Shown piece by piece: positions 11,296-51,993 of a stretch of DNA of 64,000 nucleotides (position 1 is its first letter; each line of letters opens with the position of its first letter). Origin of the DNA: an uncultured Litoreibacter sp. (GTDB lineage: Bacteria; Pseudomonadota; Alphaproteobacteria; Rhodobacterales; Rhodobacteraceae); contig CANLUY010000001.1 in assembly GCA_947494435.1 (NCBI GenBank), forward strand, positions 610,001 to 674,000, given 5' to 3'. The notes below the pieces were generated by a model, which made no database searches, was not told the origin of the DNA, and saw only the letters and a program-made list of their open reading frames with translations. The position numbers were made by a program, and so were the translations under genes.

Positions 11296-11370
11296 TGGGA
11301 TGTAGCCAAGTGGTAAGGCAACTGTTTTTGGTACAGTGTACCGTAGGTTCGAATCCTACCATCCCAGCCA
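11296..11370 (+). tRNA. tRNA-Gln (anticodon UUG)
   Basis: A 75-base cloverleaf with the CCA end encoded. The acceptor stem pairs TGGGATG with CATCCCA, the anticodon stem ACTGT/ACAGT encloses loop TTTTGGT giving anticodon TTG, and the T-arm has the canonical GGTTCGAATCC. The anticodon reads CAA/CAG glutamine codons. Confidence 0.95.
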
Positions 11371-11940: not shown

Positions 11941-12954
11941 CTAGGTACGCCGGATCGCTCTTGGCATCGTCCCTTCAACACTCAGTTGGCTGAATGGAGG
12001 AATAGCGGAGGTCGCTGTTAGTCCTTTGAGGGACGCGCGTGCGGTGGCCGCCGCGATCTGAATTGCGTGGTCCGGCGTCATGTCTTCGTGAAGCCCATAA
12101 AGCAGCCCGGCACAGAACGCGTCGCCCGCCCCGAGATGGCTTGCGATCTCTTGTGTCTCAAGTTGGTCAATGTTGTGGACACGTCCAAGCTCATCTGGGC
12201 CCAGCCAGACAACCGTTTCGGCAGTATGGATGATCACGGCGCGTTTCACACCCATACCAAGTATGACCTGCGCCATCTCAATTAAATCATCTTGCGATCC
12301 GCTAGGTTCTTTTCCGTTTGCAAGAGCGGCTTCGATCTCGTTGGCGATAAAGTAGTCCACGAAGGGCGCAGCAGACGCGACGATTTCTTGAAATCGGGGG
12401 TGGTGGATTGACACAAGATCGACGCAAGTGGTCAAGCCCGCCTGTTGAGCGCGTTGCAATACCTTCGCCGCATTTGTTTTGCCGTCTTCGGCCGTTTCAT
12501 CCAATTCGCCCAAGAGCGTAAGATATCCAAGGTAGAAGATACGAGCTTGTGTATCTGTGAACGTACCGGACGGGAAATCACTGACGCCTAAGGCGTCGTT
12601 TGCACCACCTTGATAAAAGAATGTGCGGCTTTGGCCCGCGACGGACATAACATGTGTGTGTGCCGTAGCGATCCCGGTTTTGGTCTGCATCCCAGGTGTC
12701 GGCAGCCCAAGCCGCTGACATTCGTTGAGGATGAAGGCGGCCTGTTCATCGTCACCGATAGCGCCCATAGGGTAAAGGTTCACACCGGTTTCCAGCCTTG
12801 CCAACGCTGAAATCACATTTGCAGCACCCCCACCGATTCCGCGAGTCTGCTGGTTAATTCGCGTCAGTTCACTTTCGTTGGGCCAGCGGTCAACGTCATG
12901 AACGAGGTCCACGATCCAATTCCCTGCGCAGATAATCCCTGATCGATCTGTCAT
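11941..12954 (-). CDS. PfkB-family carbohydrate kinase
   Basis: This 337-residue ribokinase/PfkB-fold kinase has the N-terminal PfkB signature GIGGGAANVISAL and the C-terminal LGAGDAFCAGLLYG, whose Asp is the catalytic base. It should phosphorylate a sugar or keto-deoxy sugar acid with ATP. In context it is the last gene of a sugar-catabolic block, 55 bases downstream of a Gfo/Idh/MocA gene and an aldolase gene, which suggests that its product feeds the aldolase. The exact substrate is not visible. Confidence 0.88.
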   Translation of the reverse strand: MTDRSGIICAGNWIVDLVHDVDRWPNESELTRINQQTRGIGGGAANVISALARLETGVNLYPMGAIGDDEQAAFILNECQRLGLPTPGMQTKTGIATAHTHVMSVAGQSRTFFYQGGANDALGVSDFPSGTFTDTQARIFYLGYLTLLGELDETAEDGKTNAAKVLQRAQQAGLTTCVDLVSIHHPRFQEIVASAAPFVDYFIANEIEAALANGKEPSGSQDDLIEMAQVILGMGVKRAVIIHTAETVVWLGPDELGRVHNIDQLETQEIASHLGAGDAFCAGLLYGLHEDMTPDHAIQIAAATARASLKGLTATSAIPPFSQLSVEGTMPRAIRRT

Positions 12955-13009
12955 GGATTTTTGACGACTGGATTAGTCGCCACCGCTTCAAATCGAGGTA
13001 TCGAGCTAT

Positions 13010-14155
13010 TCATCGAGAGTAGACCACGTCTTGAACGGTATGGCTTGTCCCAGCCTTCAAGGCAGCTGTGAGAATAGCGTGATGGTCAGCTGCCTCTTGC
13101 GGTGTCACGCAAGGGAACCCGTTTGCGTCACCGCCGGCCAATTCATCCAAATAGGCTGCCCACATTTGTTGCAGTGCATCAGGGAAGCCAAATTCGAAAA
13201 TACCACCGGTTATGGTGGGGAACCGGGACTGGTATCCCAAGTCTTCGACATTCCAGACTTGAGCTCCCCCGTCATATTCCATGAACTGCCACTGCCGGGG
13301 ATTTTTCGTTGAGAAAAACGCGCTTTTGCGTGTGCCGAGGACTTTGATGCTCCAAGTGTTTGAGTGACCGGGGGCAATCCGCCAAGTTTTCATAACCAGT
13401 GGAAAGCCGCCTGCGTCGTCCTCTACATGACCCGTGATCGTCGCATTGTCCCATGTCTCGCAAGGGACCGTGCCGCCTTTCCCATCTGGACGGGTCGGGA
13501 ACCGATTGACGAGAGAGGCCGACACGGATTTAGGTCTCCACCCCAGCCTGAGCGGCACGTGGAGCACGTGCATCCCAAGATCGCCCATGCAACCATAGGC
13601 GCCGTTCACGTCGACCATACGCTTCCAATTTATGGGCTTATCGGGGTTCAGGTCGGAAGAATGCAGAAAAGCGGCTTCGACTTCGATGATGTCGCCCAGA
13701 TCGCCTGAGCGGACGAAGTCGATGACCTTTTGCGCCCCGGGGTAGAATGGCATCTCTGACGAGCATCTGACGAAACATCCAGGTTGGGCCTTGATGGCCG
13801 CTTGGATTTGCTTATTCGCCGCGGCGTCAATTCCAAATGGCTTCTCACCAAGCAAATGTTTTCCGGCAGCAAGGATATCAGGGTAAATGTCATGGTGAAG
13901 GTTATGCGGAACAGCGCAGTAAACCGCGTCGACATCTTCGTTTGCCAATAGCTCACTGTATTCGCGGGTCACTTGTTTAACCGTCGGGACGTTGTCGGAA
14001 AACCAGTCCGTCAAATCTGAGTTGAGATCGCAGACAGCTACTATTTTGGGCCGCGCACGTGTTTCAGACAAATGCAACCACCGCGCGGCAGCGGAGGCAA
14101 ATTCTCGCCCCATCAATCCACAGCCAATTACGCCAAAGCGAATGACCTGCGTCAC
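13010..14155 (-). CDS. Gfo/Idh/MocA-family oxidoreductase
   Basis: This 381-residue dehydrogenase has an N-terminal NAD(P)-binding Rossmann domain (FGVIGCGLMGREFA) and the family motif GEKPFGID, with the catalytic Lys in EKP, followed by the C-terminal sugar-binding domain. The family oxidises or reduces ring or chain hydroxyls of sugars and inositols. The start overlaps the aldolase stop by four bases, so the two are co-translated. It is predicted to act on an intermediate of the sugar imported by the ABC system at 18018-22926. Confidence 0.88.
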   Translation of the reverse strand: MTQVIRFGVIGCGLMGREFASAAARWLHLSETRARPKIVAVCDLNSDLTDWFSDNVPTVKQVTREYSELLANEDVDAVYCAVPHNLHHDIYPDILAAGKHLLGEKPFGIDAAANKQIQAAIKAQPGCFVRCSSEMPFYPGAQKVIDFVRSGDLGDIIEVEAAFLHSSDLNPDKPINWKRMVDVNGAYGCMGDLGMHVLHVPLRLGWRPKSVSASLVNRFPTRPDGKGGTVPCETWDNATITGHVEDDAGGFPLVMKTWRIAPGHSNTWSIKVLGTRKSAFFSTKNPRQWQFMEYDGGAQVWNVEDLGYQSRFPTITGGIFEFGFPDALQQMWAAYLDELAGGDANGFPCVTPQEAADHHAILTAALKAGTSHTVQDVVYSR

Positions 14156-14979
14156 GCGATCATGCCCAACGCGTCCGCGACGGACGTGCCATCATGAACC
14201 ACTGACATCAGCGCTTTGGTCATTCCCGCAGGGTTTGAGTGGTGGATCACATTTCGCCCGTAGACGATCCCTTTCGCGCCCTGCGCCATCAGCTCGGCCG
14301 TTCTGTTCAGGATTTCTTCGTCACTGACTTTGCCGCCACCTCTGACCAACACGGGGATGCCCTGCGCGGTCTCAATGACGCGATGATACTCCTGCACATT
14401 TTCGCAGGGGTCGGCTTTGATGATATCAGCGCCCAGCTCCACTGCTTGACGCACCAAAGCGAGGATTTTGTTGATGTCTCCATCGACCATATAGCCGCCC
14501 GCCTTCGCGTTATCCTGCATCACCAGAGGTTCAACCATCAAAGGCATGCCGGTCAGGTCACAAGCGCGCTTGAGGGCAGTGATGTTCTTGATGCACGCTT
14601 CGTGCACCTCTGGCTGATCAGGTAGCAACAAAAGGTTCACGACGACACAAGCGGCGTCCAGCATGACACCTTGCTCTACAGCATCCTCGATCACCACGGA
14701 AAACAGGGAGCGAGGCAGTGGGTTGCCATACACATTGGCGATATCGGTCCGCAAAACCAAGGCAGGGCGCGTCTTGCCCGTCATAGATTGCAGAATAGGG
14801 GCTGTTCCCGGGGTCAGCTGAATTGCATCCGGCGCGGCCTTCGCCACCACAGAAATCGCGTCATGCATGTTTTCTATGCCGCCCAAAAAGCCGGGCTCAT
14901 TGAACATCCCATGATCAATGGCGACATCAAAACAATGCCCAGACGGGCCAAAAAGCCGGTTCATGCGCGCCAATTTCAT
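14152..14979 (-). CDS. Class I aldolase of the DeoC/LsrF/FbaB superfamily
   Basis: This 275-residue TIM-barrel protein has the FbaB/LsrF-type pattern: FDVAIDHGMF near the N-terminus, a Schiff-base lysine candidate in DIIKADPCE, VLVRGGGKVSDEE and a phosphate-binding GIVYGRNVIHHSNP. Members cleave or transfer fragments from phosphorylated keto sugars. Next to a PfkB kinase this suggests cleavage of a kinase product to three-carbon or shorter units. GGGAG precedes the ATG. It is the first gene of the minus-strand unit aldolase / Gfo-Idh-MocA / kinase, divergent from the amidohydrolase gene. Confidence 0.85.
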   Translation of the reverse strand: MKLARMNRLFGPSGHCFDVAIDHGMFNEPGFLGGIENMHDAISVVAKAAPDAIQLTPGTAPILQSMTGKTRPALVLRTDIANVYGNPLPRSLFSVVIEDAVEQGVMLDAACVVVNLLLLPDQPEVHEACIKNITALKRACDLTGMPLMVEPLVMQDNAKAGGYMVDGDINKILALVRQAVELGADIIKADPCENVQEYHRVIETAQGIPVLVRGGGKVSDEEILNRTAELMAQGAKGIVYGRNVIHHSNPAGMTKALMSVVHDGTSVADALGMIA

Positions 14980-14980
14980 A

Positions 14981-15027
14981 TGATTTACTCCCTTACCGTT
15001 ACGGAAAGTAAATCACAGGAAACCTGT
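14981..15027. promoter_or_regulatory. Nested inverted repeats in a divergent promoter region
   Basis: TGATTTACT (14981-14989) and AGTAAATCA (15007-15015) are perfect 9-base inverted repeats around a 17-base centre. Directly adjoining is ACAGG-AAA-CCTGT (15015-15027), another perfect inverted repeat. They lie between the divergent aldolase and amidohydrolase genes and look like operator sites for one or two regulators. No dedicated regulator gene is present in the sugar block. Confidence 0.5.
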
Positions 15028-15102
15028 TCTCGAAAGTCCAAACGCCTTGCGTTTACACAGTGAATTCCAGACGATCTTGTCAGAGACCGTGAAGGAAACG
15101 TC

Positions 15103-15939
15103 GTGACATACGTTGATGCACATCACCATTTCTGGAACCCGGCGCGTGGCGATTACGGCTGGATGCCGGACGACGATCCGATTTTATCGAAAGCCTATGG
15201 GCCATCGGACTTATCGCAGGCGCTCGAAGCCGCCGGCGTGAACCAGACCGTTTTGGTGCAGGCAGCCCCGACGGTTCATGAAACAGAATACCTGTTGGGC
15301 ATTGCAGATGCGTGCTCATCCGTCGCCAAAGTAGTCGGGTGGATCGATTTTGAGGACCCCTTGTCCGTCGAGACTCTCCGGCGCCTAGCCCAACACCCGA
15401 AATTCGCGGGTGTCCGACCAATGATACAAGATTTGCCCGATGACGACTGGATGCTGCGCCCGGATATCCAATGGGCGTACGAGGCGTTGATTGAGTTGAA
15501 CTTGACCTTTGATTGCCTCGGCTTTCCAAGGCATCTGGCAAATTTCCATACGCTACTGACGCGTTATCCGGAATTGAGGGCCGTCATCGACCATTGCATG
15601 AAGCCCCAGATCAGCGACGACACGGATGCACATTTCAAGATGTGGGCGGAAGGTCTTGGACGTCTAGCGGAAGATACGGGCGTCTTTTGTAAGTTATCCG
15701 GACTTGTGACCGAAGCAGACACCAATTGTACCGTTGCGACGCTGAAACCCTACAGCGATTTTGTGATTAAGACGTTTGGGGCAGAGCGCGTCATGTGGGG
15801 CAGTGACTGGCCGGTGGTCCGATTGCGCACTGAGTATGCTCAGTGGTATGGCATGAGCACTGAACTGACTGCCCATCTGACTGCTCCCGAACACCAACAG
15901 ATCTTTGCAGGGTCGGCGCGCAGGTTTTATCAATTCTAA
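15103..15939 (+). CDS. Amidohydrolase-family lactonase (L-fuconolactonase-like)
   Basis: This 278-residue COG3618 amidohydrolase begins VDAHHHFWNP, the family's N-terminal metal-binding HxH, and ends with the MWGSDWPV motif carrying the catalytic Asp. Relatives hydrolyse sugar lactones such as L-fucono- or L-rhamnonolactone to the acid. This would be the second oxidative step after an aldose dehydrogenase (compare the aldo/keto reductase at 24480). The start is GTG with GAAGGAA upstream. It is convergent with the alcohol dehydrogenase gene (three bases between stops). Confidence 0.85.
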   Translation: MTYVDAHHHFWNPARGDYGWMPDDDPILSKAYGPSDLSQALEAAGVNQTVLVQAAPTVHETEYLLGIADACSSVAKVVGWIDFEDPLSVETLRRLAQHPKFAGVRPMIQDLPDDDWMLRPDIQWAYEALIELNLTFDCLGFPRHLANFHTLLTRYPELRAVIDHCMKPQISDDTDAHFKMWAEGLGRLAEDTGVFCKLSGLVTEADTNCTVATLKPYSDFVIKTFGAERVMWGSDWPVVRLRTEYAQWYGMSTELTAHLTAPEHQQIFAGSARRFYQF

Positions 15940-15942
15940 GCT

Positions 15943-16941
15943 TCAGGCCTCATATGGAACGACGATGGCACGGACCTCTCCTTTCAGGGGTGGCGAAGCA
16001 ATGGCCTCCGCTGCTTCAGCAAGTGAAATCGTTCGACTGATCAGAGGAGCGACCGAGATGCTCCCATTCGAAATCATCTGTGCCGCGCGGCTATGCGTGA
16101 ACGGATTGAGAAAGCTAAAATGCATCTGAATTTCGCGAAACAGCAGGTCAAACGGCTCAATCGGCACCTGTTCGCCCTGCGGCAGGACACCAAGGATCAC
16201 GACCCGCCCGCCGGTGCGGGTCAGTTTGGGGGACATCACGACCGTTTTAGCAACACCCGCGCATTCGACCACCGCATCCGCGCCACCGGGCCAGATACCC
16301 TGAAAAGCGCCTTCATCTCCAACCGCATGGTCCGCACCCAGCGACAAGGCCAGCGCCTGCTTTTCAGCACTGCGGGTCAGCAAAGCGACTTCAGCGCCCG
16401 CGCGCTTGGCGAGTTGTACCGCCAATAATCCAATGACACCGCCGCCAATGATCAACACCTTCTCGCCAGCTTGGACCGCCGCCAAGTCCATACCGTGGAT
16501 GGTGCAGGCCAAAGGTTCGCAAAATGCACCGTATAAAGGGTTTAGATCACGTGGCAGCAACACCGCTTTTGATGCTGGAAAGGCGCAAAACTCAGCGAAC
16601 CCGCCGTCTCGGTGAATACCGGTCGCGACATTGTTGGTGCAGAGATTTACGCGCCCGCGTAAGCATTGGTCGCACGTGCCGCACCACGTATTCGGATCGC
16701 AAGTCACACGGCAGCCTTCGGTGAAGCCTGTATCACCAGCATCCACGACGATCCCGGAAAACTCATGGCCCAGCGTTTTGCCGGGAACCGATGGAAATTC
16801 ACCCTTGTAGAGGTGACGATCGGTTCCACAGATCCCTGCAGCCTCAACCCGGATAAGTACTTCGCCTGGGGCAATAGACGGGACCGGCACGTCAACCGTA
16901 CGAATGTCGCCAGTCGTGAAAAGCTGAGTGGCTTTCATCAT
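15943..16941 (-). CDS. Zinc-dependent medium-chain alcohol/polyol dehydrogenase
   Basis: This 332-residue MDR-family enzyme has the catalytic zinc ligands in GICGTDRH and LGHEFSG, the structural zinc cysteines in CGTCDQCLRGRVNLC, and the NAD-binding GGGVIGLLAVQLAKRAG. It resembles sorbitol/threonine dehydrogenases and should oxidise a secondary hydroxyl of a sugar or polyol intermediate. It overlaps the DUF4432 gene by four bases and is the last gene of the ABC transporter operon. Confidence 0.88.
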   Translation of the reverse strand: MMKATQLFTTGDIRTVDVPVPSIAPGEVLIRVEAAGICGTDRHLYKGEFPSVPGKTLGHEFSGIVVDAGDTGFTEGCRVTCDPNTWCGTCDQCLRGRVNLCTNNVATGIHRDGGFAEFCAFPASKAVLLPRDLNPLYGAFCEPLACTIHGMDLAAVQAGEKVLIIGGGVIGLLAVQLAKRAGAEVALLTRSAEKQALALSLGADHAVGDEGAFQGIWPGGADAVVECAGVAKTVVMSPKLTRTGGRVVILGVLPQGEQVPIEPFDLLFREIQMHFSFLNPFTHSRAAQMISNGSISVAPLISRTISLAEAAEAIASPPLKGEVRAIVVPYEA

Positions 16942-18011
16942 CCCTCCCGCAGCTGCGTGATTTTCGCCATTGCAGCGTCGGTCTCCGAAATGGTCAAAAG
17001 ACCAAACTGCATATCAATGCGCCATGTCTGGCCTGCCTCTACTGTCTCGACCCGGCCCTTTGCCTTTTCGGCGGTGTAGCCTTCGACGCCGGAAGTTGAG
17101 GGAAACGCAATGCCGAGACCATCTTGATCCGGGGTCCGACAGATCCAGCGCGTACAAAGTGTCGATTGACTAGGGCGGCAACGGACATAGTCCGCGGTGC
17201 CGTCGGGATGCTTCTGCAAGGCATGAGCAAAGCCGTCCGTATCAGCTTTCAAATCAAGCTCGAAAACTACTTCGGGGTCAAAAGCCAGATCGGGGGCGAG
17301 AACATGATGCAACGCAGGGTTTTCTGCCAGATCTGACAAGAATTCTGTATACCCCGCCTCCGGCGTCACATGCGACGGGATAGATTTGCGTACCCGAACT
17401 GAGGCAGGGTTGTAGTCGGCGGTGTAATGCAGCTCGCCGTGATCCACGGGGCGGAAGTTGGCATGGCCCAAATACATCAGATCCATCGGCGTGCGTTTTA
17501 GGTTTTCGACTGAGACAGATACGTCCATCAGGGCCGAACCCGCTGACAATGACGTCTCAACCGTCGCGCGGTAATTGGTCGAGAAGGCCACCGTGTGCTG
17601 ATAGCTGCCCGCAACCGTTAGCCTTTGAGTGCCCGGATCAATCTGCAACCAAGCTGTGTCAAAGGGGGCATTGGGCAATTCGCCGTGCAGCGCGTGTGTG
17701 TCTTCCGGCCCCGGAGCACCCAGCCCTGTGATCCCACAATGGATCAGGAACCCACCATAGGTTTCCAAATAGGTGCGGGTCTCTTTAGGCTGGTCAAACA
17801 TTGACCGCATCGTCAGGTCTCGTCCGTCAAATTCAGCGCGCCAGACCTGTTGGCCTTGATAAGGAAGCATGACGATTTCGCCACGAGCATTCCGCACCCT
17901 CAGGCCAGCGACGCCACTGGCAAAGCGAAACGCGCTGACGGAAAATTCACCGGATTGGCAAAGCGGTCGCTCTAACTCAGTGAACATGGAAGGGTAGAGC
18001 TCTATCCGCAT
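16938..18011 (-). CDS. DUF4432 aldose-1-epimerase-like protein
   Basis: This 357-residue cytoplasmic protein has the beta-rich galactose-mutarotase-like fold of the DUF4432 family; characteristic stretches are YGGFLIHCG, HALHGELPNAPFD and YLGHANFRPVD. Such proteins are thought to interconvert anomers of a sugar before oxidation or phosphorylation. It is 6 bases downstream of the transporter ATPase gene, so it is probably co-expressed with uptake. The function is inferred from fold and context. Confidence 0.75.
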   Translation of the reverse strand: MRIELYPSMFTELERPLCQSGEFSVSAFRFASGVAGLRVRNARGEIVMLPYQGQQVWRAEFDGRDLTMRSMFDQPKETRTYLETYGGFLIHCGITGLGAPGPEDTHALHGELPNAPFDTAWLQIDPGTQRLTVAGSYQHTVAFSTNYRATVETSLSAGSALMDVSVSVENLKRTPMDLMYLGHANFRPVDHGELHYTADYNPASVRVRKSIPSHVTPEAGYTEFLSDLAENPALHHVLAPDLAFDPEVVFELDLKADTDGFAHALQKHPDGTADYVRCRPSQSTLCTRWICRTPDQDGLGIAFPSTSGVEGYTAEKAKGRVETVEAGQTWRIDMQFGLLTISETDAAMAKITQLREG

Positions 18012-18017
18012 CGCCGC

Positions 18018-19088
18018 TTACCGGATCCGCTGACCGCTGGTCTCATCAAAGACGAACAGATGCTCTGACGGGAGAATGACCCCGATGTCATCGCCCATTT
18101 CACCAGCGAATTCCTTGGGAGCCTTAACTGCTATCTGATCATCGCCCCACGCAACCGTGACGAGCGCATGATCTCCGATCAACTCGTTGGTGAAAATCTT
18201 ACCCGCCAGCGTGCCCTCCGACGGTGACGCAATCCTGCAATCTTCCGGCCGAATACCCATAACGGCCTTCTCGGCGCGGCCTGAAACGGCTGTCTCCACA
18301 TGCACGCCGTTGGTCAGGAATTGGCTTCCATCTAGACTGCCATGCACCACGTTCATGGGCGGCGAGCCGATGAATTGCGCGACGAACAGGTTTGCGGGGT
18401 TGTTGTAAATCTCTGCCGGGGTGTCGAGTTGCTGCAACACGCCTTTCTCAAGAATGGCAACCCGGTGTGCCAGAGTCATCGCTTCGATTTGATCGTGGGT
18501 CACGTAGATCGTAGTGATGCCCATCGACTTCTGCATGTGCTTGAGTTGCGCGCGCATGTGGCCGCGCAATTTTGCATCCAGATTGGACAATGGCTCATCC
18601 ATCAAGAAGACCGAAGGGCTTCTGATGATCGCGCGGGCCAAGGCCACGCGTTGCCGTTGGCCACCCGATAGGGCACGTGGGTAGCGATCCAAAAGGTTTT
18701 CAATCTGAACTTGCGCCGCGGCATCATGAATCGCGGCATCCATGTCCTCCTTGCTCATTCCGCGAACCTTCAACGGGAAGCCGATGTTTTCGGCGACGGT
18801 TTTGTGCGGGTAGAGCGCGTAGGATTGGAACACCATCGAGATATTGCGATATTTGGGCAGGATATCCGTGACGTTCTCATCGCCGATATAGACCTGTCCG
18901 CCAGAGGGCGTTTCCAGACCAGATAAGATACGCAGCGCTGTCGTCTTGCCCGACCCCGATGCGCCCAGCAGGACAACAAATTCGCCCGGCTCCACGACTA
19001 AATCAAAGTCGCGCAGGACTTTCACATCCCCAAAGCTCTTTTCGATATTTTCAAATCTGACCGGAACCTGATTGCCGAAGTCTTTCAT
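18018..19088 (-). CDS. Sugar ABC transporter ATP-binding protein (MalK/UgpC type)
   Basis: This 356-residue ATPase has Walker A GASGSGKTTAL, Q-loop VFQSYALYPH, signature LSGGQRQRVALARA, Walker B VFLMDEPLSNLDA and the H-loop VTHDQ, followed by a C-terminal TOBE/OB regulatory domain. It powers the importer made of the two permeases and the binding protein directly upstream (19092-22926). Confidence 0.93.
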   Translation of the reverse strand: MKDFGNQVPVRFENIEKSFGDVKVLRDFDLVVEPGEFVVLLGASGSGKTTALRILSGLETPSGGQVYIGDENVTDILPKYRNISMVFQSYALYPHKTVAENIGFPLKVRGMSKEDMDAAIHDAAAQVQIENLLDRYPRALSGGQRQRVALARAIIRSPSVFLMDEPLSNLDAKLRGHMRAQLKHMQKSMGITTIYVTHDQIEAMTLAHRVAILEKGVLQQLDTPAEIYNNPANLFVAQFIGSPPMNVVHGSLDGSQFLTNGVHVETAVSGRAEKAVMGIRPEDCRIASPSEGTLAGKIFTNELIGDHALVTVAWGDDQIAVKAPKEFAGEMGDDIGVILPSEHLFVFDETSGQRIR

Positions 19089-19091
19089 TCC

Positions 19092-20279
19092 TTAACCTTT
19101 CACCGCGCCCGACAGGACGCCTTTAGAAATGAACCGTGTCAGCAGGATCGACATCAGTATGACAGGGATGATCATCACAACGATCAGCGCGCACATTTCC
19201 CACCAGAAGATGCCCTTCTCCCCCGTGTTTTTGGCCGCGATCATGATGGGCATCGTCTGAACTTTGACTGTCGCAAGAAACACCGCAAACAGGTATTCAT
19301 TCCAACTCAGCACAAGGATCAGCAACGTTGTGGCCGCGAGGCCTGGACGGGTCAGCGGCATGACGATTTCCCAAAAAATGCGCGGGCGCGTGGCGCCGTC
19401 CAGCTGCGCGGATTCCTCTAGCTCAATCGGCAGGTTGGCGAAGAAGTCGTGCATCAGCCACACGACGATGGGCATGTTCGCGACCGCATAGAGCAGGATC
19501 AGGGCCAAATGCGTATCCAGCAAGCCGACGGCCTGAAACATGACATAGATCGGAATGACCACGACGATTGGTGGCAAGATCCGTTGTGAGATAATCCAGA
19601 ACAGGATGTCGCCATTCTTTAGCGACGTTTTGAAGTACCCCCTGAGCGCGCGTAACAGCAGGAAAAAGAACGCCAAGGCAAAGGCGGTTGCGGCCCACCA
19701 AGGCGCGCCTGCGTAGATCGTGGCGAAGATCACGCCCACGAGGAGAAGAACGAAGATCAGGATGTTGCCGAAACGCGGTGCATATTGGATACGCGCCAAG
19801 GCGTATGCGGCCATGGACCCGACGACGACACACAGCCCGGTCGAGAATATGCTGATGACGACAGAGTTGGTGAAGGCCAGATAGATCTTGCATATCTGCG
19901 GCTCCATCGGGGCCAGCGTCACCACAGGCGAGACGATGAATACGAAGGAATTGTAGACCAAGAGCCCCAACTGACGCCCGATGGCTCCAAAGTTGCAGTT
20001 CGGGTCTTCGGTAAACTGGATACGCCATGCGTCGAGCGTTGGTTGGAAGTCAACAAAGGGCAGATAGAACGGCCCCTGATTGACGGCAGCTGCGTCCTTG
20101 AAGGAGGTGATGATCACCCAGTAAATCGGGAATAGCACGAAGAGCGACCAGATCAGCAGCAGCGTATAGGCCACAAGCTTGGAGACGGGTGACATCTTGC
20201 CAACAGCAGGTGCCTCAAAAAGGCGTTGCATGACCGTGCGATTGGACAGCCGGAAGCGGAAGGAAGAGGCGTCTTTCAT
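19092..20279 (-). CDS. Carbohydrate ABC transporter permease (MalG type), enlarged
   Basis: The C-terminal half has the EAA loop (LEESAQLDGATRPRIFWEI) and helices of MalG-like permeases. With 395 residues it is about 110 longer than usual. The extra part lies between the first helices and the core and contains additional hydrophobic segments (FGNILIFVLLLVGVIFATIY, WWAATAFALAFFFLLLRAL). The start overlaps the stop of the other permease gene (ATGA). It forms the membrane channel with the protein at 20276. Confidence 0.9.
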   Translation of the reverse strand: MKDASSFRFRLSNRTVMQRLFEAPAVGKMSPVSKLVAYTLLLIWSLFVLFPIYWVIITSFKDAAAVNQGPFYLPFVDFQPTLDAWRIQFTEDPNCNFGAIGRQLGLLVYNSFVFIVSPVVTLAPMEPQICKIYLAFTNSVVISIFSTGLCVVVGSMAAYALARIQYAPRFGNILIFVLLLVGVIFATIYAGAPWWAATAFALAFFFLLLRALRGYFKTSLKNGDILFWIISQRILPPIVVVIPIYVMFQAVGLLDTHLALILLYAVANMPIVVWLMHDFFANLPIELEESAQLDGATRPRIFWEIVMPLTRPGLAATTLLILVLSWNEYLFAVFLATVKVQTMPIMIAAKNTGEKGIFWWEMCALIVVMIIPVILMSILLTRFISKGVLSGAVKG

Positions 20280-21430
20280 GCGCGAGCCTTTTTGATTTGC
20301 CCGAGGACGACGTAGTTGAAGAAGGATGCGCAGACGACGACCGTAAGGATCAGCAGCAGATAAGCAATTGCGGCGGATGAACCCAGATCGTTGGCCCGCC
20401 AGATATACATCGAATGCAACGTCATCGACTCTGTCGCCGAACCGGGACCACCGCCGGTCATGATGTTGGGCAGATCAACGATCTTGAAAGCCTCGATCAT
20501 CCGGATCAGCAGCACAGTGACGGCGACGGGCAGGATCTGAGGCCAGGTAATTTCCTTGAAGATTTGTGGGCTTGAAGCGCCATCTACCTGCGCAGCCTCG
20601 ACGTGATCGCGCGGGACGTTTTCAAAGGCGGCCAGCATGCAGATGAAGATGAACGGGATCCATTGCCAGCTGTCGCTGACCATCATCATAAAACGTGCAG
20701 ACCAAGCATCTGCCGACCAGATCCAGTCTTGCAAACCGATCAGCCCTAAGATCGGCTCAATCGGGCCCTTCGTGACGTCAGCCACCATGCGCATGGCGTA
20801 TCCGACGCCCAAGGGTGTGATCATCAGCGGGATGAAGAAAATCACCCGGAAGAAGTTTTTGCCCGATATTGGCTGAGAGCAGAGAAATGCGAGCCCTGTA
20901 CCGATGGCGAATTGAAACGCGCAGCCGACGATAACGTAGAACAGGGTCGTGTAGAGCGTGCCAATGGAGTTACCGGACAAAAGCGACGCACACAAAATCC
21001 ATGACAGGAAGATCGCCATCGCCGCCGAGATCGTGCGGCCAAGCATGCCGACCCAAGTTGTGATCTTGCGTGACCGCCAAAGCCAGACCAATACGGCAAC
21101 CGCGACAATGGCGAAAACGGTATAGCCGAAGATACTGACAGGGTCGGTGCGCCCAAGGAAATGAACCTCGCTGCTGCCGAAGAATTGTTTTGCGAAGTTG
21201 CGGAAACCTACGTAGCGGAATTTCAGGCCATCAGGCGTGAACCGTACCCGACTGACCGCAAAAAAGATCGAATAGATCGTTGGGAAAATTGCAAAAATAA
21301 GGATCAAGGTCACGCAAGGCGCAATGAAGAAGGTACCGGAATGACGGTCCACCCATTCCGCAAAGCGCTCGCGTCGCGTCGTGCCAGCCGGAGAAAACCC
21401 CGGCTGGCCCATGTTATCAAGACTTGCCAT
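20276..21430 (-). CDS. Carbohydrate ABC transporter permease (MalF type), enlarged
   Basis: This 384-residue permease has the EAA-type loop (HVEAAQVDGASSPQIFKEI) and about eight membrane segments. Like its partner it is longer than typical sugar permeases (about 300) through an insertion with extra hydrophobic stretches (VSIFGYTVFAIVAVAVLVWL, SAAMAIFLSWILCASLL). It lies between the binding protein gene (20 bases upstream) and the second permease gene (overlapping). Confidence 0.9.
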   Translation of the reverse strand: MASLDNMGQPGFSPAGTTRRERFAEWVDRHSGTFFIAPCVTLILIFAIFPTIYSIFFAVSRVRFTPDGLKFRYVGFRNFAKQFFGSSEVHFLGRTDPVSIFGYTVFAIVAVAVLVWLWRSRKITTWVGMLGRTISAAMAIFLSWILCASLLSGNSIGTLYTTLFYVIVGCAFQFAIGTGLAFLCSQPISGKNFFRVIFFIPLMITPLGVGYAMRMVADVTKGPIEPILGLIGLQDWIWSADAWSARFMMMVSDSWQWIPFIFICMLAAFENVPRDHVEAAQVDGASSPQIFKEITWPQILPVAVTVLLIRMIEAFKIVDLPNIMTGGGPGSATESMTLHSMYIWRANDLGSSAAIAYLLLILTVVVCASFFNYVVLGQIKKARA

Positions 21431-21450
21431 CAGCTCAGCAGATCAGCAGA

Positions 21451-22926
21451 TCAGTTGCCAAGTGCGAGAGCTTGAGCTTCGACCTGCTCGTCGCGTCCGA
21501 AGTCTTCGGTGATTTCTTCCCAGCCTTCTTCGATGTTCTCCAAAGCTTCATCGACTGTGATTTCACCGGCCAAATACCTTGCTAGCTGGGTGTCCAAAAC
21601 AACCGCAGTGTATTGCTGAGCACCCGGAATTTTCATGTCAGATGCCATGTTCGGGTTGTTCAGCGCGCCGTTGATTGCACCAAGATAGTTCTCGGCCAGC
21701 TCTTTCGGCATACCGGCTTCGACCCAAAGGTCAGTGCTGGCAAGCTGCGAGTTGCGATATGGGTTGTAGCCTGTGGCCCCGCGTGTCACGTCCACGCCGG
21801 ATTGTGCGGCTTGGTTCATGTAGGACAGGAACGCATAAGACGCCGCTTTCGTCTTCTCATCGGCGTTGGCGTTGACGGCGCCAGCCCAGCCACCGAAGGC
21901 TGCGAATGGTGCATAGTTTACACCGTCAACGGCATGTGGCGCGCTTTCGGCGGACACAGGAACCAACTCACCGCTTTCACGGTCCAGCACTTCGGTCGAC
22001 CCGATAGCTGATATGGCGTACATCTTGCCTTTGATCGCCGTGGCGTCATCATCAAGTTGCAAAGTGCCCGGATCACCCCATTCAACGATCAGACCGCAAC
22101 GGCCTGCTTTGAACAGCGCACGCGTGTCGCCGATGTCGAGGTTGAGCTCTTCCGGCGGGCCATATTTGCCGGTTTCCTTGTACAGCTCAAACGCCTTGCG
22201 CCAGCCCGCGTTGTTCACAATCGGCGCCATTGTGGCGTTGTCGAAGTGGAAGCCCTGCGCGGTGCCTTGTGTCTGCACAATCGGGGCCGCGAAGGTCTGG
22301 ATAGCAAAGTAGGACTGCGCGTTCCGCTTCTTGAAGATGCAGGAGCCATAGTCTGCTTCGCCATCGCCATTCATGTCCTTGTCATGAATTTTTGACGCCA
22401 CGTCGAGGTATTCTTCCCAAGTTTTTGGTGGTTCCAGCCCCGCTTCGGACAGTACGTCAGTGCGGTAATACACCATCTGGAAGTCGCCATCGACCATTAG
22501 CATCTTGGTCTTGCCGCCGACCTTTTGGCCGAATTCGCGGAAGTAAGGTGCGATGTCGTTCAAGTCGATCTTGTCGTCCTTGGCGATGTAAGGGTCTAAG
22601 TCTTCGAGCAGTCCCGCAGCGTCAAGTTCGACACCCCAACCAGCCGCGAAAACACCAACATCGATAGAATTTGTCCCAGTTGCCCAGTCGTTTTGGATTT
22701 TCGGGAAGATCTCCGCGAACGGCACTTCCGTTACGACGATCTTCGCGCCGGTTTCAGCTTCAAAGTCTTTCCCGCGCTCTGCGAGTGGTCCCGCGATCAC
22801 GTAGCCGGGGCGTGTCAGGATGTTTACCGTGACCCCTTCAAATTCTTGCGCAATGGCGGGCACACAAACTGAGCCCAAAGCAGCGGCGCTAACAGACAGC
22901 GCCTTTAGATGCTTCTTCAACATCAA
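21451..22926 (-). CDS. Extracellular sugar-binding protein of the ABC importer
   Basis: This 491-residue protein begins with a Sec signal peptide (KHLKALSVSAAALGSVCVPAIA, cut before QEFEG) and has the type I solute-binding fold, for example FEAETGAKIVVTEVPF and an aromatic-rich ligand region. It is large for the family and carries no lipobox Cys at the cut site. A strong GGGAGGA precedes the ATG, fitting the high expression expected of a periplasmic receptor. It is the first gene of the operon; the sugar bound is unknown. Confidence 0.92.
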   Translation of the reverse strand: MMLKKHLKALSVSAAALGSVCVPAIAQEFEGVTVNILTRPGYVIAGPLAERGKDFEAETGAKIVVTEVPFAEIFPKIQNDWATGTNSIDVGVFAAGWGVELDAAGLLEDLDPYIAKDDKIDLNDIAPYFREFGQKVGGKTKMLMVDGDFQMVYYRTDVLSEAGLEPPKTWEEYLDVASKIHDKDMNGDGEADYGSCIFKKRNAQSYFAIQTFAAPIVQTQGTAQGFHFDNATMAPIVNNAGWRKAFELYKETGKYGPPEELNLDIGDTRALFKAGRCGLIVEWGDPGTLQLDDDATAIKGKMYAISAIGSTEVLDRESGELVPVSAESAPHAVDGVNYAPFAAFGGWAGAVNANADEKTKAASYAFLSYMNQAAQSGVDVTRGATGYNPYRNSQLASTDLWVEAGMPKELAENYLGAINGALNNPNMASDMKIPGAQQYTAVVLDTQLARYLAGEITVDEALENIEEGWEEITEDFGRDEQVEAQALALGN

Positions 22927-22945
22927 AAAATTCCTCCCAGAATTA

Positions 22946-22975
22946 AATATAATTTACGGGGATTCTCCGTCCCAA
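22946..22975 (-). promoter_or_regulatory. Putative promoter with operator-like palindrome before the sugar-binding protein gene
   Basis: On the minus strand TTGGGA (22970-22975) and TATATT (22946-22951) are spaced 18 bases apart, about 20 bases ahead of the ribosome binding site. The spacer holds an imperfect inverted repeat, ACGGAGAATCCCCGT on the minus strand (22956-22970), which could be an operator. Confidence 0.35.
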
Positions 22976-23080
22976 GTGTTAACAGCCTAGGACGCAAATT
23001 TCGATCTGGCTAGAAAAAATCTGTTATTATCAATAGCTGTTCCACTGATCCGCGACCTAAGAATTGCGCAGATGATCTGT

Positions 23081-23674
23081 TCATATGTTATGAAGCGGGT
23101 CATCAATCGCGGGTCCTATTTCAAATTCGAAGAACCGCGCGACCAGCCCCGATCTTTGCGGGGAACACGCCATGGGGCCCACCAAAACAGGGACATCAGG
23201 CTCAAAGTTCGCGAGGCGCAGCAGCTGCCAATGCCCGGTCTTTGCCATAAAATGCGAAATGATCGCCCCTCCCACCCGGGTCAGTCTGATGCGTTGCCGC
23301 ATGGCCAACTTATCCTGACAAAAGACTGACCAGTCGGAATGCCCATCGCGTGTCACAACCGTTGAGAAATTGGTGACACCATCGGAGTGTTCGACGCCCG
23401 TCTTGATCCAATCCTCTCTATTGATCCGCACCATCAAGCCCGCCTGATCGTACAACACTTGGTACTCTGCCGCGAACGTCAGTACGGCCGTAAAATCCCC
23501 CTGAAGTTCACGTCCAAGAAAATGACCATCATCGCGATGAAATCCGTAAAACGTGTCTTGCCAGAAATCCGTGTCCTTGCCTGTTTCGATTGTCAGGACG
23601 TCATCTTTCAGACTCCACGCGTCAGGCTCATTTGTCCATTTTGCGTCGCTAAGGCCTTGCTCAAGTCTTGTCAT
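23081..23674 (-). CDS. DUF1349 domain protein
   Basis: This 197-residue protein matches the DUF1349 family (concanavalin A/laminin-G-like beta sandwich): DKTDFW-type N-terminus (ETGKDTDFWQDT), YDQAGLMVRINREDWIKTGVEH and a closing GPMACSPQRSGL. No signal peptide is visible, so it is probably cytoplasmic. Related domains bind carbohydrates, but the family function is undefined. It lies upstream of the sugar-binding protein gene on the same strand and divergent from the SDR gene. Confidence 0.75.
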   Translation of the reverse strand: MTRLEQGLSDAKWTNEPDAWSLKDDVLTIETGKDTDFWQDTFYGFHRDDGHFLGRELQGDFTAVLTFAAEYQVLYDQAGLMVRINREDWIKTGVEHSDGVTNFSTVVTRDGHSDWSVFCQDKLAMRQRIRLTRVGGAIISHFMAKTGHWQLLRLANFEPDVPVLVGPMACSPQRSGLVARFFEFEIGPAIDDPLHNI

Positions 23675-23751
23675 TCTCGAATTTTCCTACCTTGATCGAC
23701 AAATGGGGTGAGTTCCGTAAACTCGACCAACATGCATATGGGAGTAACGGT

Positions 23752-24483
23752 GTGAAGACTGGATTGAGCGGACGGCGCGTCCTCGTGACCGGAGCATCAG
23801 GTGGGATCGGTGCCGCAACGGTCCGGCTACTCGTTGAGGAGGGCGCAACTGTCATTGCCTCGGGGCGGGACGAAGACAGACTCTCGAAGCTTGCGACTGA
23901 GACGGGATGCGAAGTTTTGCCTTTTGATCTGACGTCGGAAGATTCAGTGAAGAGCGCTCTCACAGGTGTCGAGTTATTCGGTGTCGTGAACTGTGGCGGC
24001 TGGGGAGGTGAAATTGCGACGCCAATGGAGACCGACACGGCCGTCTTCGACAAGGTTATCGACATTAACGCCCGCGGTACGCTTCTTGTCACAAAATACG
24101 CTTCGCAAAACATGGTTGCTGCAGGAAACGGAGGGTCGATTGTCAATGTGTCCAGCCAAGCATCACTGGTCGGGTTGGCCGGACACATCTCTTATGCCTC
24201 TTCAAAAGGGGCGGTCGATGCAATGACACGGGTATCAGCCCTCGAACTTGGAAAGTACAAGATCCGCGTGAACGCTGTGAACCCCACCGTCGTTATGACA
24301 CCGATGTCTGAATGGTATTGGGGCCGCGAAGATATTGGTGGCCCACTTATCGATGCCATGCCGCTGCATCGCTGGGCCACTGAGGAAGACTGCGCTGGCC
24401 CGATTGTCTTCTTGCTATCGGACGCAGCTGTGATGATTTCTGGTGTTTGCCTTCCCATCGATGGTGGCTTTACTGCTGTTTAG
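23752..24483 (+). CDS. Short-chain dehydrogenase/reductase
   Basis: This 243-residue classical SDR has the cofactor motif TGASGGIGAAT, the active-site Ser in VNVSSQASL and YASSK (YxxxK). It resembles L-xylulose reductase and 2-keto-3-deoxy-sugar-acid dehydrogenases. I chose GTG at 23752, preceded by GGGAG, because the longer frame (from 23668) would run across the divergent promoter and adds non-SDR sequence. Its stop codon overlaps the aldo/keto reductase stop on the other strand. Confidence 0.85.
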   Translation: MKTGLSGRRVLVTGASGGIGAATVRLLVEEGATVIASGRDEDRLSKLATETGCEVLPFDLTSEDSVKSALTGVELFGVVNCGGWGGEIATPMETDTAVFDKVIDINARGTLLVTKYASQNMVAAGNGGSIVNVSSQASLVGLAGHISYASSKGAVDAMTRVSALELGKYKIRVNAVNPTVVMTPMSEWYWGREDIGGPLIDAMPLHRWATEEDCAGPIVFLLSDAAVMISGVCLPIDGGFTAV

Positions 24484-25466
24484 ATAGGCACTTCCGCATC
24501 TTCGCGAAGAAGCCCCTTTGTTTTGAGCGTCGACCAAAAGTCTGATGGGATGTCGACGCCAAACCACTCGACAATCTGCTTAAGCTCACCCTCGTCGCGA
24601 GGGCCAGGGATGACCGATGACACGATTGGGTCGCCCAACGGGAATTGCAGCGCTGCTGCCGCGAGCGGGACGTTGAACGCATCCGCGACATCCGCCAATG
24701 CGCGGGCTCTCTCAATGACATTTTTAGGCGCTTTGGCGTAGTTCCATGTGTCCCGACCGACCAGAATCCCGGAATTAAAGGGGCCACCGCAAATGATCGT
24801 TGTGCCTGCGTCCCGACATGCTGGGAATAGCGCATCCAAAGCCGTTTGTTCGAGCAGTGTATAGCGCCCTGCAAGCAAGAAGACGTCCCAGTCGCCAATG
24901 CTTAGTGCATCCCGACAAACCTTGTTCTCATTCACACCAAGTCCGATGGCTTTCACTTGGCCCCCTCGCCGCAACTCATCCATTGCGCGGTAGCCTCCTT
25001 CCGTCAGATCCCGGAAGTGACGCACGTTTTCGTCGCCGTGCTGAAACGCGCCGATGTCATGCGCAAGCAAGATATCAATTCGGTCGAGGCCAAGACGTTG
25101 AAGATTGTCCTCGAACGCCCGCATTATCCCGTCATAGCTGTAATCGTAGACGACATGGAACGGTAGCGGATCAACCATCCCAAACTCTGCCGGGTTTTCG
25201 ACAGCCCCGGGCACCAGCAGACGGCCAACTTTATCAGAGAGCACATAATCTGAGCCTCGCAGCACATCTCCCATAACGCGCTCAGATCGTCCGAAACCGT
25301 ACCACGGCGCAGTGTCAAAATACCCTATGCCTGCGGCCTTAGCGGCCCGGATTAGCGCTTCCGCCTGCGCGTAGCCAAGATCAACGAAGTTGCCCCCCAA
25401 CGGCGCCCCCCCCAATCCAAGGACATCGACTTTGAGAGTTGTTCGACCAATCGCTCTTTGTTCCAA
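24480..25466 (-). CDS. Aldo/keto reductase, D-threo-aldose 1-dehydrogenase (L-fucose dehydrogenase)-like
   Basis: This 328-residue TIM-barrel oxidoreductase carries the AKR tetrad: Asp and Tyr in YFDTAPWYGFGRSE, Lys in VLSDKVG and His in ILLAHDIG. The sequence is closest in style to the D-threo-aldose/L-fucose dehydrogenase subgroup, which oxidises an aldose at C1 to the lactone with NAD(P). That makes it the likely first enzymatic step, feeding the lactonase at 15103. Confidence 0.87.
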   Translation of the reverse strand: MEQRAIGRTTLKVDVLGLGGAPLGGNFVDLGYAQAEALIRAAKAAGIGYFDTAPWYGFGRSERVMGDVLRGSDYVLSDKVGRLLVPGAVENPAEFGMVDPLPFHVVYDYSYDGIMRAFEDNLQRLGLDRIDILLAHDIGAFQHGDENVRHFRDLTEGGYRAMDELRRGGQVKAIGLGVNENKVCRDALSIGDWDVFLLAGRYTLLEQTALDALFPACRDAGTTIICGGPFNSGILVGRDTWNYAKAPKNVIERARALADVADAFNVPLAAAALQFPLGDPIVSSVIPGPRDEGELKQIVEWFGVDIPSDFWSTLKTKGLLREDAEVPI

Positions 25467-25538
25467 AACGGGTTCATCCTTTTATGCGGTCTCAATGTGT
25501 GCTCGCGTTTCGACGCGGGGCAAAGTCTGTTTCAACGC

Positions 25539-26774
25539 TCAAACAGAAGTCAGACCCATCTGCCTGCGACCTAACTCTGTCAGATCGTCGAGTGCGGCGC
25601 GGCCCTCAAAGTCGACCTCATAGTCTTCTGCAGCGAAATCCGGTGCGCTGCGTCCCGCCATGAACGCCTCCGCCTGTTTCTGCACATAGGCCTTGTTCTT
25701 CGCGCAGACAGGCGAAGCTCCGATGTAGATGACATTGGCATAGTCGCTGCCTTTGTGCTCATTCGCGACGGAATGCAGGACGTCGGGATGCCACCAGACT
25801 GTATCACCCGGTCGGACCTCCGGAATACTGATCATTCCTTCAAGAATTTCGCCATGCCAGTGAGGGTCTGCGCCAAGTGCCCGTCCGGGCCAGGCACCAC
25901 AAAGATCATCTTCCGCAACATCATCTTGGAGCGCCCGCAGAAGCATGTAGCCGATTGAATTGGCGATGGGCAAAAGGCTTAACGTTCCGTCACCTGGGCC
26001 TTGTGTCGTCAAGGCCGTCCATCCCTGAAATGTCCGAAACATCGAGCAGACCGCAGGCGAAGCATATTCCCGTGTCTGTGTCCGAAAGGCCGCTTTCCAG
26101 GGATCGAAACTCTCCATATCGCCTTGGTAAATTGACCGGTAAATCGCCTGATAGGCCGGGTCACACCAGCGTTCGTACGAACCACTATCCATATGTGGCG
26201 ACAGGCCCAGCGTCGTGTCACCAGGCTGACGACGACGCAGCCGGTCTGCGTATGCCAAGTCATGATTTGGGTCAAATTCTTGTCCCATTGGCGCGGTCAC
26301 ATCATACAACCGATTGAGAAACCGCTTGGTCAACGCCATGCTTTCAGCCTGTCTGGCCATGACTTGAGGTCGCGACCAATACAATCCGAAAATCTGCGGT
26401 GTCGCGTCGTCCAACGTGCTGAAATACTTGTCGATCCCGGCTTTTGCCTTGGCTTTTGAAAGATAGTCGTTGAGATCAATATAGGCGCCGACTTCGTCGT
26501 TCCACTCTTCGGCTTGCGTGCGGTCGAAAACGCCACGGACGATCACACACCCACGCTGACGCACAAACGCTCGGTCGGTCTCGTCAACGTCGTCATCGGC
26601 AATCTGGCGATATTGGATTTCGGGGATGACAGGGCGTCCAGCGGCGACATCCATCTTTATTGCTTCAACATCGCGAAGGATTTTGTCGCGACAGGTCGCG
26701 AAAGACGTCCGCATGTCTGACAATTGGGACAGTCTACGCTTCGTCTCAGCTATAATCGATCTGGGGTCGAACTC
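25539..26774 (-). CDS. DUF1479 family protein (Fe(II)/2-oxoglutarate oxygenase-like)
   Basis: This 411-residue protein matches DUF1479 (YbiU family), distantly related to phytanoyl-CoA-type Fe(II)/2-oxoglutarate oxygenases. Candidate iron ligands are visible as SPHMDSG (HxD) and, about 150 residues later, WWHPDVLHSV. The reaction of the family is not known to me. The start at 26774 begins MEFDPRSI; an upstream start at 26807 would add 11 residues. It is the outermost gene of the sugar block, 72 bases from the aldo/keto reductase gene on the same strand. Confidence 0.8.
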   Translation of the reverse strand, partial: EFDPRSIIAETKRRLSQLSDMRTSFATCRDKILRDVEAIKMDVAAGRPVIPEIQYRQIADDDVDETDRAFVRQRGCVIVRGVFDRTQAEEWNDEVGAYIDLNDYLSKAKAKAGIDKYFSTLDDATPQIFGLYWSRPQVMARQAESMALTKRFLNRLYDVTAPMGQEFDPNHDLAYADRLRRRQPGDTTLGLSPHMDSGSYERWCDPAYQAIYRSIYQGDMESFDPWKAAFRTQTREYASPAVCSMFRTFQGWTALTTQGPGDGTLSLLPIANSIGYMLLRALQDDVAEDDLCGAWPGRALGADPHWHGEILEGMISIPEVRPGDTVWWHPDVLHSVANEHKGSDYANVIYIGASPVCAKNKAYVQKQAEAFMAGRSAPDFAAEDYEVDFEGRAALDDLTELGRRQMGLTSV

Positions 26775-27077
26775 CATGGCAAGCTCCAAAATGATTGTCT
26801 TGAGCACTCAAAGTAGAACCTGTTTCGGGTAATTTAGAAAGAGGTCTACGAGAAGAAAGCGAATTTGGACGGATCTGATGCTTGCCGTTTGCATGCTCGC
26901 GACAGGCTTGGAAGTTGAAGTGCAAGTGGCAGTATCTCATCGCATCCGACGTCCATGGAACGCTGTTACGTGAGTTTGAACCGGCTTCGAGTGAGGAAAG
27001 CAGTGGTTGCCTGCGAAGCAAGCTGCCCCACTGCACTTTGAAAGTGTCGTGAATAGCCATTTTAGTACTTAATGTCG
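26775..27077. other. Intergenic stretch between the DUF1479 and LysR genes
   Basis: About 300 bases. A 119-codon open frame on the minus strand (26746-27105) overlaps both neighbours' ends and shows no recognisable domain or ribosome binding site, so I do not call it. The region should hold the promoter for the DUF1479 gene; AACCTGTTTCGGGT at about 26817-26830 resembles part of the repeat found at 15021-15031. Confidence 0.4.
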
Positions 27078-49000: not shown

Positions 49001-49010
49001 AAAGATGATC

Positions 49011-51956: not shown

Positions 51957-51993
51957 AGTGCCGGCATGGTCATGGACAAGTCCACAGGGAGAT

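Follow-up and report, generated by a model that had tools for sequence, protein, structure and literature searches.

The DNA analysed here is a 64,000-nucleotide stretch from an uncultured Litoreibacter sp. (contig CANLUY010000001.1, hereafter C1; C1:610001-674000, referred to as the window), and the subject of this study is a block of sugar-related genes at window positions 11941-26807, which is made up of 14 intact open reading frames (ORFs). Central to it is a trio of genes for a class I aldolase (Ald), a Gfo/Idh/MocA dehydrogenase (Gfo) and a PfkB-family sugar kinase (Kin). A preliminary description had read the block as an oxidative sugar pathway without a recognisable dehydratase; all gene families that it named were recovered when the 10 non-transport proteins were compared with Pfam and NCBIfam, the permeases and the ATPase being assigned by eye. 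The block end given there, 26774, is an internal ATG, and the longest ORF starts at a GTG at 26807. The features are as follows:

11941..12954, minus strand: PfkB-family sugar kinase (Kin), core trio; Pfam PfkB 113 bits, closest solved relative YdjH, 53 bits.
13010..14155, minus strand: Gfo/Idh/MocA dehydrogenase (Gfo), core trio; Pfam GFO_IDH_MocA 60 bits, top NCBIfam match levoglucosan dehydrogenase, 76 bits (cut-off 650).
14152..14979, minus strand: class I aldolase (Ald), LsrF/MJ0400-like, core trio; Pfam DeoC/LacD 118 bits, closest solved relatives MJ0400 (80 bits) and LsrF (66 bits).
15103..15939, plus strand: amidohydrolase, L-fucono-1,5-lactonase-like; Pfam Amidohydro_2 154 bits, NCBIfam L-fucono-1,5-lactonase 195 bits (cut-off 400).
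15943..16941, minus strand: Zn-dependent medium-chain dehydrogenase (ZnDH); Pfam ADH_N 92 and ADH_zinc_N 82 bits, top NCBIfam match scyllo-inosose 3-dehydrogenase, 172 bits (cut-off 450).
16938..18011, minus strand: DUF4432 protein; Pfam DUF4432 81 bits.
18018..19088, minus strand: ATPase of an ATP-binding cassette (ABC) importer, MalK/UgpC type by eye; intact ORF, ortholog in window-type loci.
19092..20279, minus strand: ABC importer permease (by eye); intact ORF, ortholog in window-type loci.
20276..21430, minus strand: ABC importer permease (by eye); intact ORF, ortholog in window-type loci.
21451..22926, minus strand: ABC importer solute-binding protein (SBP); 18 weak PDB matches, top 5iai, 49 bits.
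23081..23674, minus strand: DUF1349 protein; Pfam DUF1349 197 bits, yeast YJL217W (3o12) 145 bits.
23668..24483, plus strand: short-chain dehydrogenase/reductase (SDR); Pfam adh_short_C2 174 bits.
24480..25466, minus strand: aldo-keto reductase (AKR), L-galactose dehydrogenase-like; Pfam Aldo_ket_red 114 bits, closest solved relative L-galactose dehydrogenase, 90 bits, NCBIfam YdjG 74 bits (cut-off 550).
25539..26807, minus strand: DUF1479/Gig2-like protein; Pfam Gig2-like 435 bits, solved relatives 4rgk (441 bits) and YbiU.

By coordinates, Ald-Gfo-Kin form a minus-strand run with a 4-base overlap between Ald and Gfo, and the lactonase is divergent from Ald on the plus strand. SBP, the two permeases, the ATPase, DUF4432 and ZnDH make up another minus-strand run; DUF1349 (minus) is divergent from the SDR (plus), and DUF1479-AKR constitute a further minus-strand run. 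Judging from relatives, which align from residue 20-21, the true start of the SDR is probably near 23728.

An aldolase-seeded scan, taking one genome per species, gave 166 confirmed stretches, the best 80 of which were kept; all marker counts refer to these 80 loci (L016-L095 only), with matches accepted at E ≤1e-12 and 50% coverage and with identity thresholds of 60% for Gfo, 35% for Kin, 45% for ZnDH, 50% for AKR, 60% for SDR and 60% for rbsB. Functions of neighbouring genes taken from ORF lists were assigned by eye. The trio occurs together in 77 of the 80 loci, mostly of Rhodobacterales and rhizobia, and the three loci without the full set (L019, L027 and L084) lie on contigs that end inside the trio. 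The typical order is Ald-Gfo-(isomerase)-Kin, and the trio of the window (11941-14979) is adjacent, on one strand and ordered as in the relatives. Of 292 genomes drawn evenly from the order, presumed to be Rhodobacterales, 14 have an aldolase (E ≤1e-40), and 5 of these 14, the Litoreibacter genome included, have it at an identity of at least 76%.

Lys188 of the aldolase, which we take to be the Schiff-base lysine, aligns with a lysine of both MJ0400 and LsrF, and its conservation reaches at least 98% over 94 aligned rows; the same bound applies to Lys105 (EKP), Asp192 and His196 of Gfo (81 rows) and to Asp278 in the GAGD motif of the kinase (77 aligned rows), where the query itself is counted among the rows and certain genomes appear twice (e.g., L004 and L036), and tblastn hits with stops or less than 85% coverage were dropped. 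The DeoC/LacD domain together with the family lysine places the aldolase among the LsrF/DhnA-like class I aldolases. Membership in the myo-inositol pathway was not borne out, the scores being 79 bits for the IolC kinase (cut-off 300) and 52 bits for the IolG dehydrogenase (cut-off 355). Among the literature matches listed, no description of trio operons was found; the trio is common in relatives, yet apparently uncharacterised. Just 5' of the aldolase, at 14980-15017, there is an imperfect inverted repeat, GATTTACT...AGTAAATC, which by eye is partly kept in L016 and is a possible candidate operator.

A D-lyxose/D-mannose-family isomerase, counted if within 4 kb, accompanies the trio in 51 of the 80 loci, and with few exceptions its place is between Gfo and Kin; in L092 its gene precedes the aldolase. 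A single member was used to verify the family (Pfam 258 bits; NCBIfam 232 bits, cut-off 350), and the isomerase residues His101, His103, Glu108 and His166 are conserved (55 rows). The window leaves no space for such a gene, its Gfo-Kin gap being 55 bases. DUF4432 is present in 7 of the 80 loci, a tally that leaves out L023, at whose edge DUF4432 is incomplete, and five of the seven cover the Gfo-Kin interval with gaps of 6-68 bases and hence have no isomerase there; conversely, DUF4432, the block lactonase and the block AKR are all missing from the retrieved stretches of the 51 isomerase loci. Where other loci have the isomerase, the group to which the window belongs carries the Zn-dehydrogenase, the SDR, the AKR and the importer. 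A ZnDH copy of at least 45% identity is found in 42 of the 80 loci, four other records (L036, L042, L072 and L087) have an SDR of 62-74% identity immediately 5' of the aldolase, and several loci of ZnDH or window type have polyol genes as neighbours, by eye (L023, L043, L133/L134).

The aldolase and the trio were also seen in other surroundings. A second aldolase clade of about 50% identity (L097, Sinorhizobium meliloti pSymB; L007-L015) lies near an RbsABC-type importer, with an AKR and a glycerol-3-phosphate dehydrogenase-like gene nearby in S. meliloti and a glucose-methanol-choline (GMC)-type match in seven of nine order loci. In a metagenome-assembled genome titled Rhodobacter (L028:2763-9755), a RuBisCO-like protein, a DUF1537-type kinase (PF07005/PF17042) and a 6-phosphogluconate dehydrogenase-like protein stand beside the trio, a set that we take to resemble apionate catabolism.

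Gene content, conservation, catalytic-type residues and the linkage to an isomerase in relatives are the observations from which we read the block, with moderate confidence, as a sugar or polyol utilisation island with a kinase-aldolase carbon flow, and not as an oxidative dehydratase route. The order of reactions, the ketose intermediate and the products would then be as follows. A sugar or polyol would enter through the ABC importer, anomers may be dealt with by the DUF4432 protein, and the Zn-dehydrogenase and/or the SDR, with the AKR, would yield a ketose, a step at which most relatives would use the D-lyxose/D-mannose-family isomerase. The PfkB kinase would phosphorylate the ketose. Using Lys188, the class I aldolase would then split the ketose phosphate into an aldehyde and a triose phosphate, the latter probably dihydroxyacetone phosphate; Gfo would act within the same module, and the AKR and the lactonase would be accessory, perhaps oxidising the aldose or the released aldehyde. 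No dehydratase is required on such a route, because it leads from aldose or polyol to ketose, ketose phosphate and aldol cleavage; the missing enzyme is probably not needed, since the isomerase/kinase/aldolase layout works without one. The preliminary description had instead inferred a single linear route from aldose to lactone to acid, followed by phosphorylation and aldol cleavage, with a gap at the dehydratase. This was not supported, since the kinase and the aldolase belong to the isomerase-linked trio, and a mixed sugar block of this kind is a caution against assuming a single linear pathway that lacks one enzyme. If the model holds, the trio would represent an unassigned sugar or polyol pathway of rhizobia and Rhodobacterales that is testable with three enzymes.

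Several observations weigh against the kinase-aldolase reading. Neither an isomerase nor an intact-length Zn-dehydrogenase lies nearby in 18 of the 80 loci, 15 of which carry no marker gene at all (one of them the truncated L084), and the entry step is therefore not fixed. Upstream of the block in L020 and L032, at a distance of about 2-2.5 kb, is an isomerase-family gene that adjoins genes read by eye as a mannitol dehydrogenase and a sugar kinase, and the Litoreibacter genome itself has one at C1:214204-214872, which by eye no sugar genes adjoin; these copies make it less certain that isomerase and window-type block strictly exclude each other. The AKR and the lactonase point to an aldonate, which would agree with an isomerase-type ketose only if the two enzymes had a different compound as substrate, and Gfo is invariant in the trio yet without an assigned role. 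The aldolase also resembles family members with other reactions (MJ0400, LsrF). Finally, the reading names no substrate and is built on sequence comparison, and the 80 loci are related by kinship and not independent, with some genomes occurring twice, so that the isomerase pattern is suggestive and no statistic.

A variant of the entry step takes the place of the isomerase by an oxidoreductive detour, in which the AKR would reduce the imported aldose to the alditol and the Zn-dehydrogenase or the SDR would oxidise this to the ketose, feeding an undescribed ketose-phosphate kinase-aldolase pathway with Gfo processing the released aldehyde or sugar. Fungal xylose reductase and xylitol dehydrogenase convert aldose to alditol to ketose in this manner, and by this analogy we consider the detour conceivable, if unlikely.

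The absence of a dehydratase from the block was confirmed. No dehydratase family was matched, above the limits applied, by the 10 non-transport proteins in Pfam and NCBIfam, the SDR being judged on the best 25 of its 240 NCBIfam matches, and the three IlvD/Edd and five enolase-superfamily MR_MLE matches of the whole genome, the two dehydratase families to which the genome-wide search was limited, all fall outside the window. Nor do the 10 block proteins include a 2-keto-3-deoxy acid hydrolase or pyruvate-forming aldolase family; instead there is a DeoC/LacD-type aldolase of the LsrF kind. About 1.3 Mb from the block, however, at roughly C1:1.922-1.927 Mb, the genome has a cluster of an IlvD-family dehydratase (C1:1,924,791-1,926,575; NCBIfam PRK13017, 1013 bits, cut-off 684), an SDR and a didehydro-deoxy-rhamnonate-hydrolase-type protein (433 bits, cut-off 500), in which we see by eye neither a sugar dehydrogenase nor a lactonase. 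This cluster would lend itself to an oxidative upper pathway of the L-fucose/L-galactose/D-arabinose type with the dehydratase in trans: the AKR would make the lactone, the lactonase would open it, the remote cluster would finish the conversion, and the kinase and the aldolase would serve another substrate.

By sequence, the AKR and the lactonase do resemble an L-fucose-type pair, as the preliminary description had it, and could possibly feed the remote dehydratase-SDR-hydrolase cluster. Relatives of the two (AKR 60-61%, lactonase 46-48% identity) are paired in L108 and L110, and in L110 (AKR 60%, lactonase 46%) they stand beside two enolase-superfamily proteins, an SDR and a fumarylacetoacetate-hydrolase-family protein (421 bits for 2,4-didehydro-3-deoxy-L-rhamnonate hydrolase, cut-off 500). 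L109 has an AKR of 61% without a lactonase match, and AKRs of 76-79% identity occur in four genomes without an aldolase match and, in the retrieved stretch, without a lactonase match. Co-occurrence of the block with the remote cluster looked promising in 12 chosen genomes, four of which (those of L016, L018, L023 and L025, all of window or ZnDH type) hold an adjacent IlvD-hydrolase pair with the IlvD 80-93% identical, but was undone by the background: the IlvD is found in 80 of the 292 order genomes, including all five of the genus, only one of which, the Litoreibacter genome itself, has the block aldolase. The remote cluster moreover adjoins a tripartite ATP-independent periplasmic (TRAP)-type transporter of its own (by eye), the lactonase is missing from five of nine comparable loci, and the conserved trio would be left unexplained. 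We regard the in-trans route as possible but doubtful. A sugar-acid-type dehydratase does exist elsewhere in the genome, which goes half the way to the refutation that the preliminary description had set out, a canonical dehydratase gene just outside the block or co-regulated elsewhere, with the block matching a described pathway gene for gene; the gene is common in the order, however.

The further suggestion that one of the three families of unclear function supplies the missing step found no support. The DUF4432 protein is probably a member of the galactose-mutarotase superfamily: 3ty1, a putative aldose 1-epimerase, is its sole phmmer match (E 0.017) and the top Foldseek match of its low-confidence model (predicted local distance difference test (pLDDT) 49; E 1.7e-6, template-modelling (TM) score 0.46). 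Searched against Pfam to E 10, it matched only DUF4432 itself and no aldose-epimerase family, and a profile comparison with YihR gave no match. The label AEP (aldose epimerase), attached to a protein by eye, was abandoned as unsupported by any Pfam or NCBIfam match. The DUF1479 protein, with HxD at 205-207, a distal His at 345 and a PhyH score of 21.9 bits, just below the Pfam cut-off, is a probable Fe(II)/2-oxoglutarate oxygenase; the solved members of the Gig2-like family bear the name DUF1479, without a named function. The DUF1349 protein is related to yeast YJL217W. A replacement of the dehydratase by a DUF protein was rejected in view of the mutarotase likeness of DUF4432, the oxygenase likeness of DUF1479 and the loss of DUF1479 and DUF1349 in relatives.

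This loss is seen in five window-type records (L016, L017, L018, L020 and L032, with upstream stretches L130-L134), where absence refers to the retrieved stretch and not to the whole genome. The most complete relative, record CANMVD010000006.1 (L018 with upstream L132; titled Tateyamaria), reproduces the gene content and order of the block except for a single insertion, a GMC oxidoreductase before the lactonase, and the block is therefore not a chance juxtaposition; L132 contains the SBP, DUF1349 (61%), the SDR (84%), the AKR (83%) and DUF1479 (77%) in window order. DUF1479 is present in three of the five records, and DUF1349 is intact in one and left as a C-terminal remnant in one other. The lactonase is found in four of the nine loci that cover the ZnDH-Ald interval (L016, L017, L018 and L027) and is absent from L019, L020, L023, L024 and L032. 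In L020 and L032, both uncultured alphaproteobacterial records, the ZnDH shows an identical internal loss of residues 137-277 (L020:9252-9803 and L032:9247-9804), and the AKR of L032 is split over two frames. Since the lactonase, DUF1479 and DUF1349 are missing from some relatives that keep the rest, none of them looks like a replacement dehydratase, and they do not look like obligatory steps, unless encoded elsewhere in those genomes.

An oxygenase could also act at the entry, the DUF1479 protein hydroxylating a modified (e.g., O-methylated) sugar ahead of an AKR/SDR/kinase/aldolase route. The HxD...H motif and the PhyH similarity are compatible with this, and DUF1479 stands ahead of the AKR in the window as well as in L016/L130, L018/L132 and L020. 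However, there is no DUF1479 upstream of the AKR in L017/L131 and L032/L134, where the region is covered, and only 4 of the 292 order genomes hold DUF1479 (E ≤1e-60), the other three without an aldolase match at E ≤1e-40, which makes such an entry step very improbable. Elsewhere, in L105 (L105:5062-10371) and L106, DUF1479 orthologs (66-67%) adjoin a divergent Gfo gene, and some 3.4 kb away there is a D-lyxose-isomerase-family gene preceded by an ABC importer.

The importer gives little guidance to the substrate. The weak PDB matches of the SBP include trehalose/maltose-labelled and sorbitol-labelled entries, the sorbitol one at 41.5 bits, and no specific ligand emerged from searches with this SBP and with the RbsB-type SBP; like that of DUF4432, the predicted structure of the SBP is poor (pLDDT 39).

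The block follows directly, from 11371, on a tRNA-Gln gene at 11296-11370. Among 19 relatives with the neighbour gene, five congeneric regions are similar to the window up to the 3' end of the tRNA, the similarity ending within 12 bases of it, and the block aldolase occurs in 3 of 21 genus genomes, the Litoreibacter genome included; in one genome (G317) it and the tRNA-side neighbour gene are on separate contigs. Because synteny stops at the tRNA-Gln 3' end and so few genomes of the genus hold the aldolase, the block has the look of variable tRNA-associated cargo, in the manner of an integration hot spot. A search of the window that allowed up to 3 mismatches found no repeat of the tRNA end. 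A separate sugar cluster of a glycosidase, an ABC importer and a LacI-type regulator is seen by eye at 47528-54358.

Two known systems may serve as models for the kinase-aldolase route, the described sulfo-Embden-Meyerhof-Parnas (sulfo-EMP) pathway and, as a second parallel, the E. coli ydj cluster. Sulfo-EMP (yihR/S/T/U/V) shares with the block and its relatives a layout of mutarotase, isomerase, kinase and class I aldolase, with no dehydratase; PMC12890257 lists the isomerase, the PfkB-type kinase and the class I aldolase, and PMC8873060 reports, for Arthrobacter sulfo-EMP strains, an additional Gfo-family gene of unknown function. The block could in principle itself be a sulfosugar pathway of this type, with Gfo as an NAD-dependent sulfoglycosidase or dehydrogenase, the PfkB protein as a sulfoketose kinase and the aldolase releasing sulfolactaldehyde, and its SBP weakly matches the sulfoquinovosyl-glycerol-binding SmoF (29 bits). 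The kinase, however, is only weakly similar to YihV (E 0.001 over 97 residues), the aldolase has no match to YihT at E ≤1, and no sulfolactaldehyde reductase, sulfolyase or sulfite exporter family, nor any gene named for sulfonate use, is found among the 10 block proteins, to which this search was confined. A PF00294/PF01791 pair in a Paracoccus sulfofucose cluster, which may correspond to two genes of the trio, was not significantly raised on sulfofucose (PMC12421959). A sulfosugar substrate is thus hardly to be expected.

The ydj cluster, annotated for L-glycero-L-galacto-octuluronate, comprises the AKR YdjG, the PfkB kinase YdjH, the aldolase YdjI and the Zn-dehydrogenases YdjJ and YdjL. 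The likeness is distant, and orthology is not claimed: Kin is 27% identical to YdjH (E 5e-21), the AKR 25% to YdjG (E 2e-20), and the ZnDH 33% to YdjJ (E 1e-42) and 31% to LgoD. YdjI is a class II aldolase, and the block aldolase is not homologous to it by BLAST (E 0.89); the E. coli stretch also lacks an annotated Gfo, lactonase, DUF4432 and ABC importer. With the L-fucose-type oxidative pathway (dehydrogenase, L-fucono-lactonase, dehydratase, SDR and hydrolase, as in L110), the block shares the AKR and lactonase families, the SDR and the ABC importer, but it has a kinase and a class I aldolase in place of the dehydratase and the hydrolase. The aldolase-Gfo-isomerase-kinase operons of rhizobia and Rhodobacterales, as on Thioclava plasmid p4 (L096) and in Rhizobium (L050), have Ald 73-82%, Gfo 67-78% and Kin 39-57% identical to those of the window in isomerase-type loci; the window differs from them in having no operon isomerase and in carrying the AKR, the lactonase, DUF4432 and a different importer.

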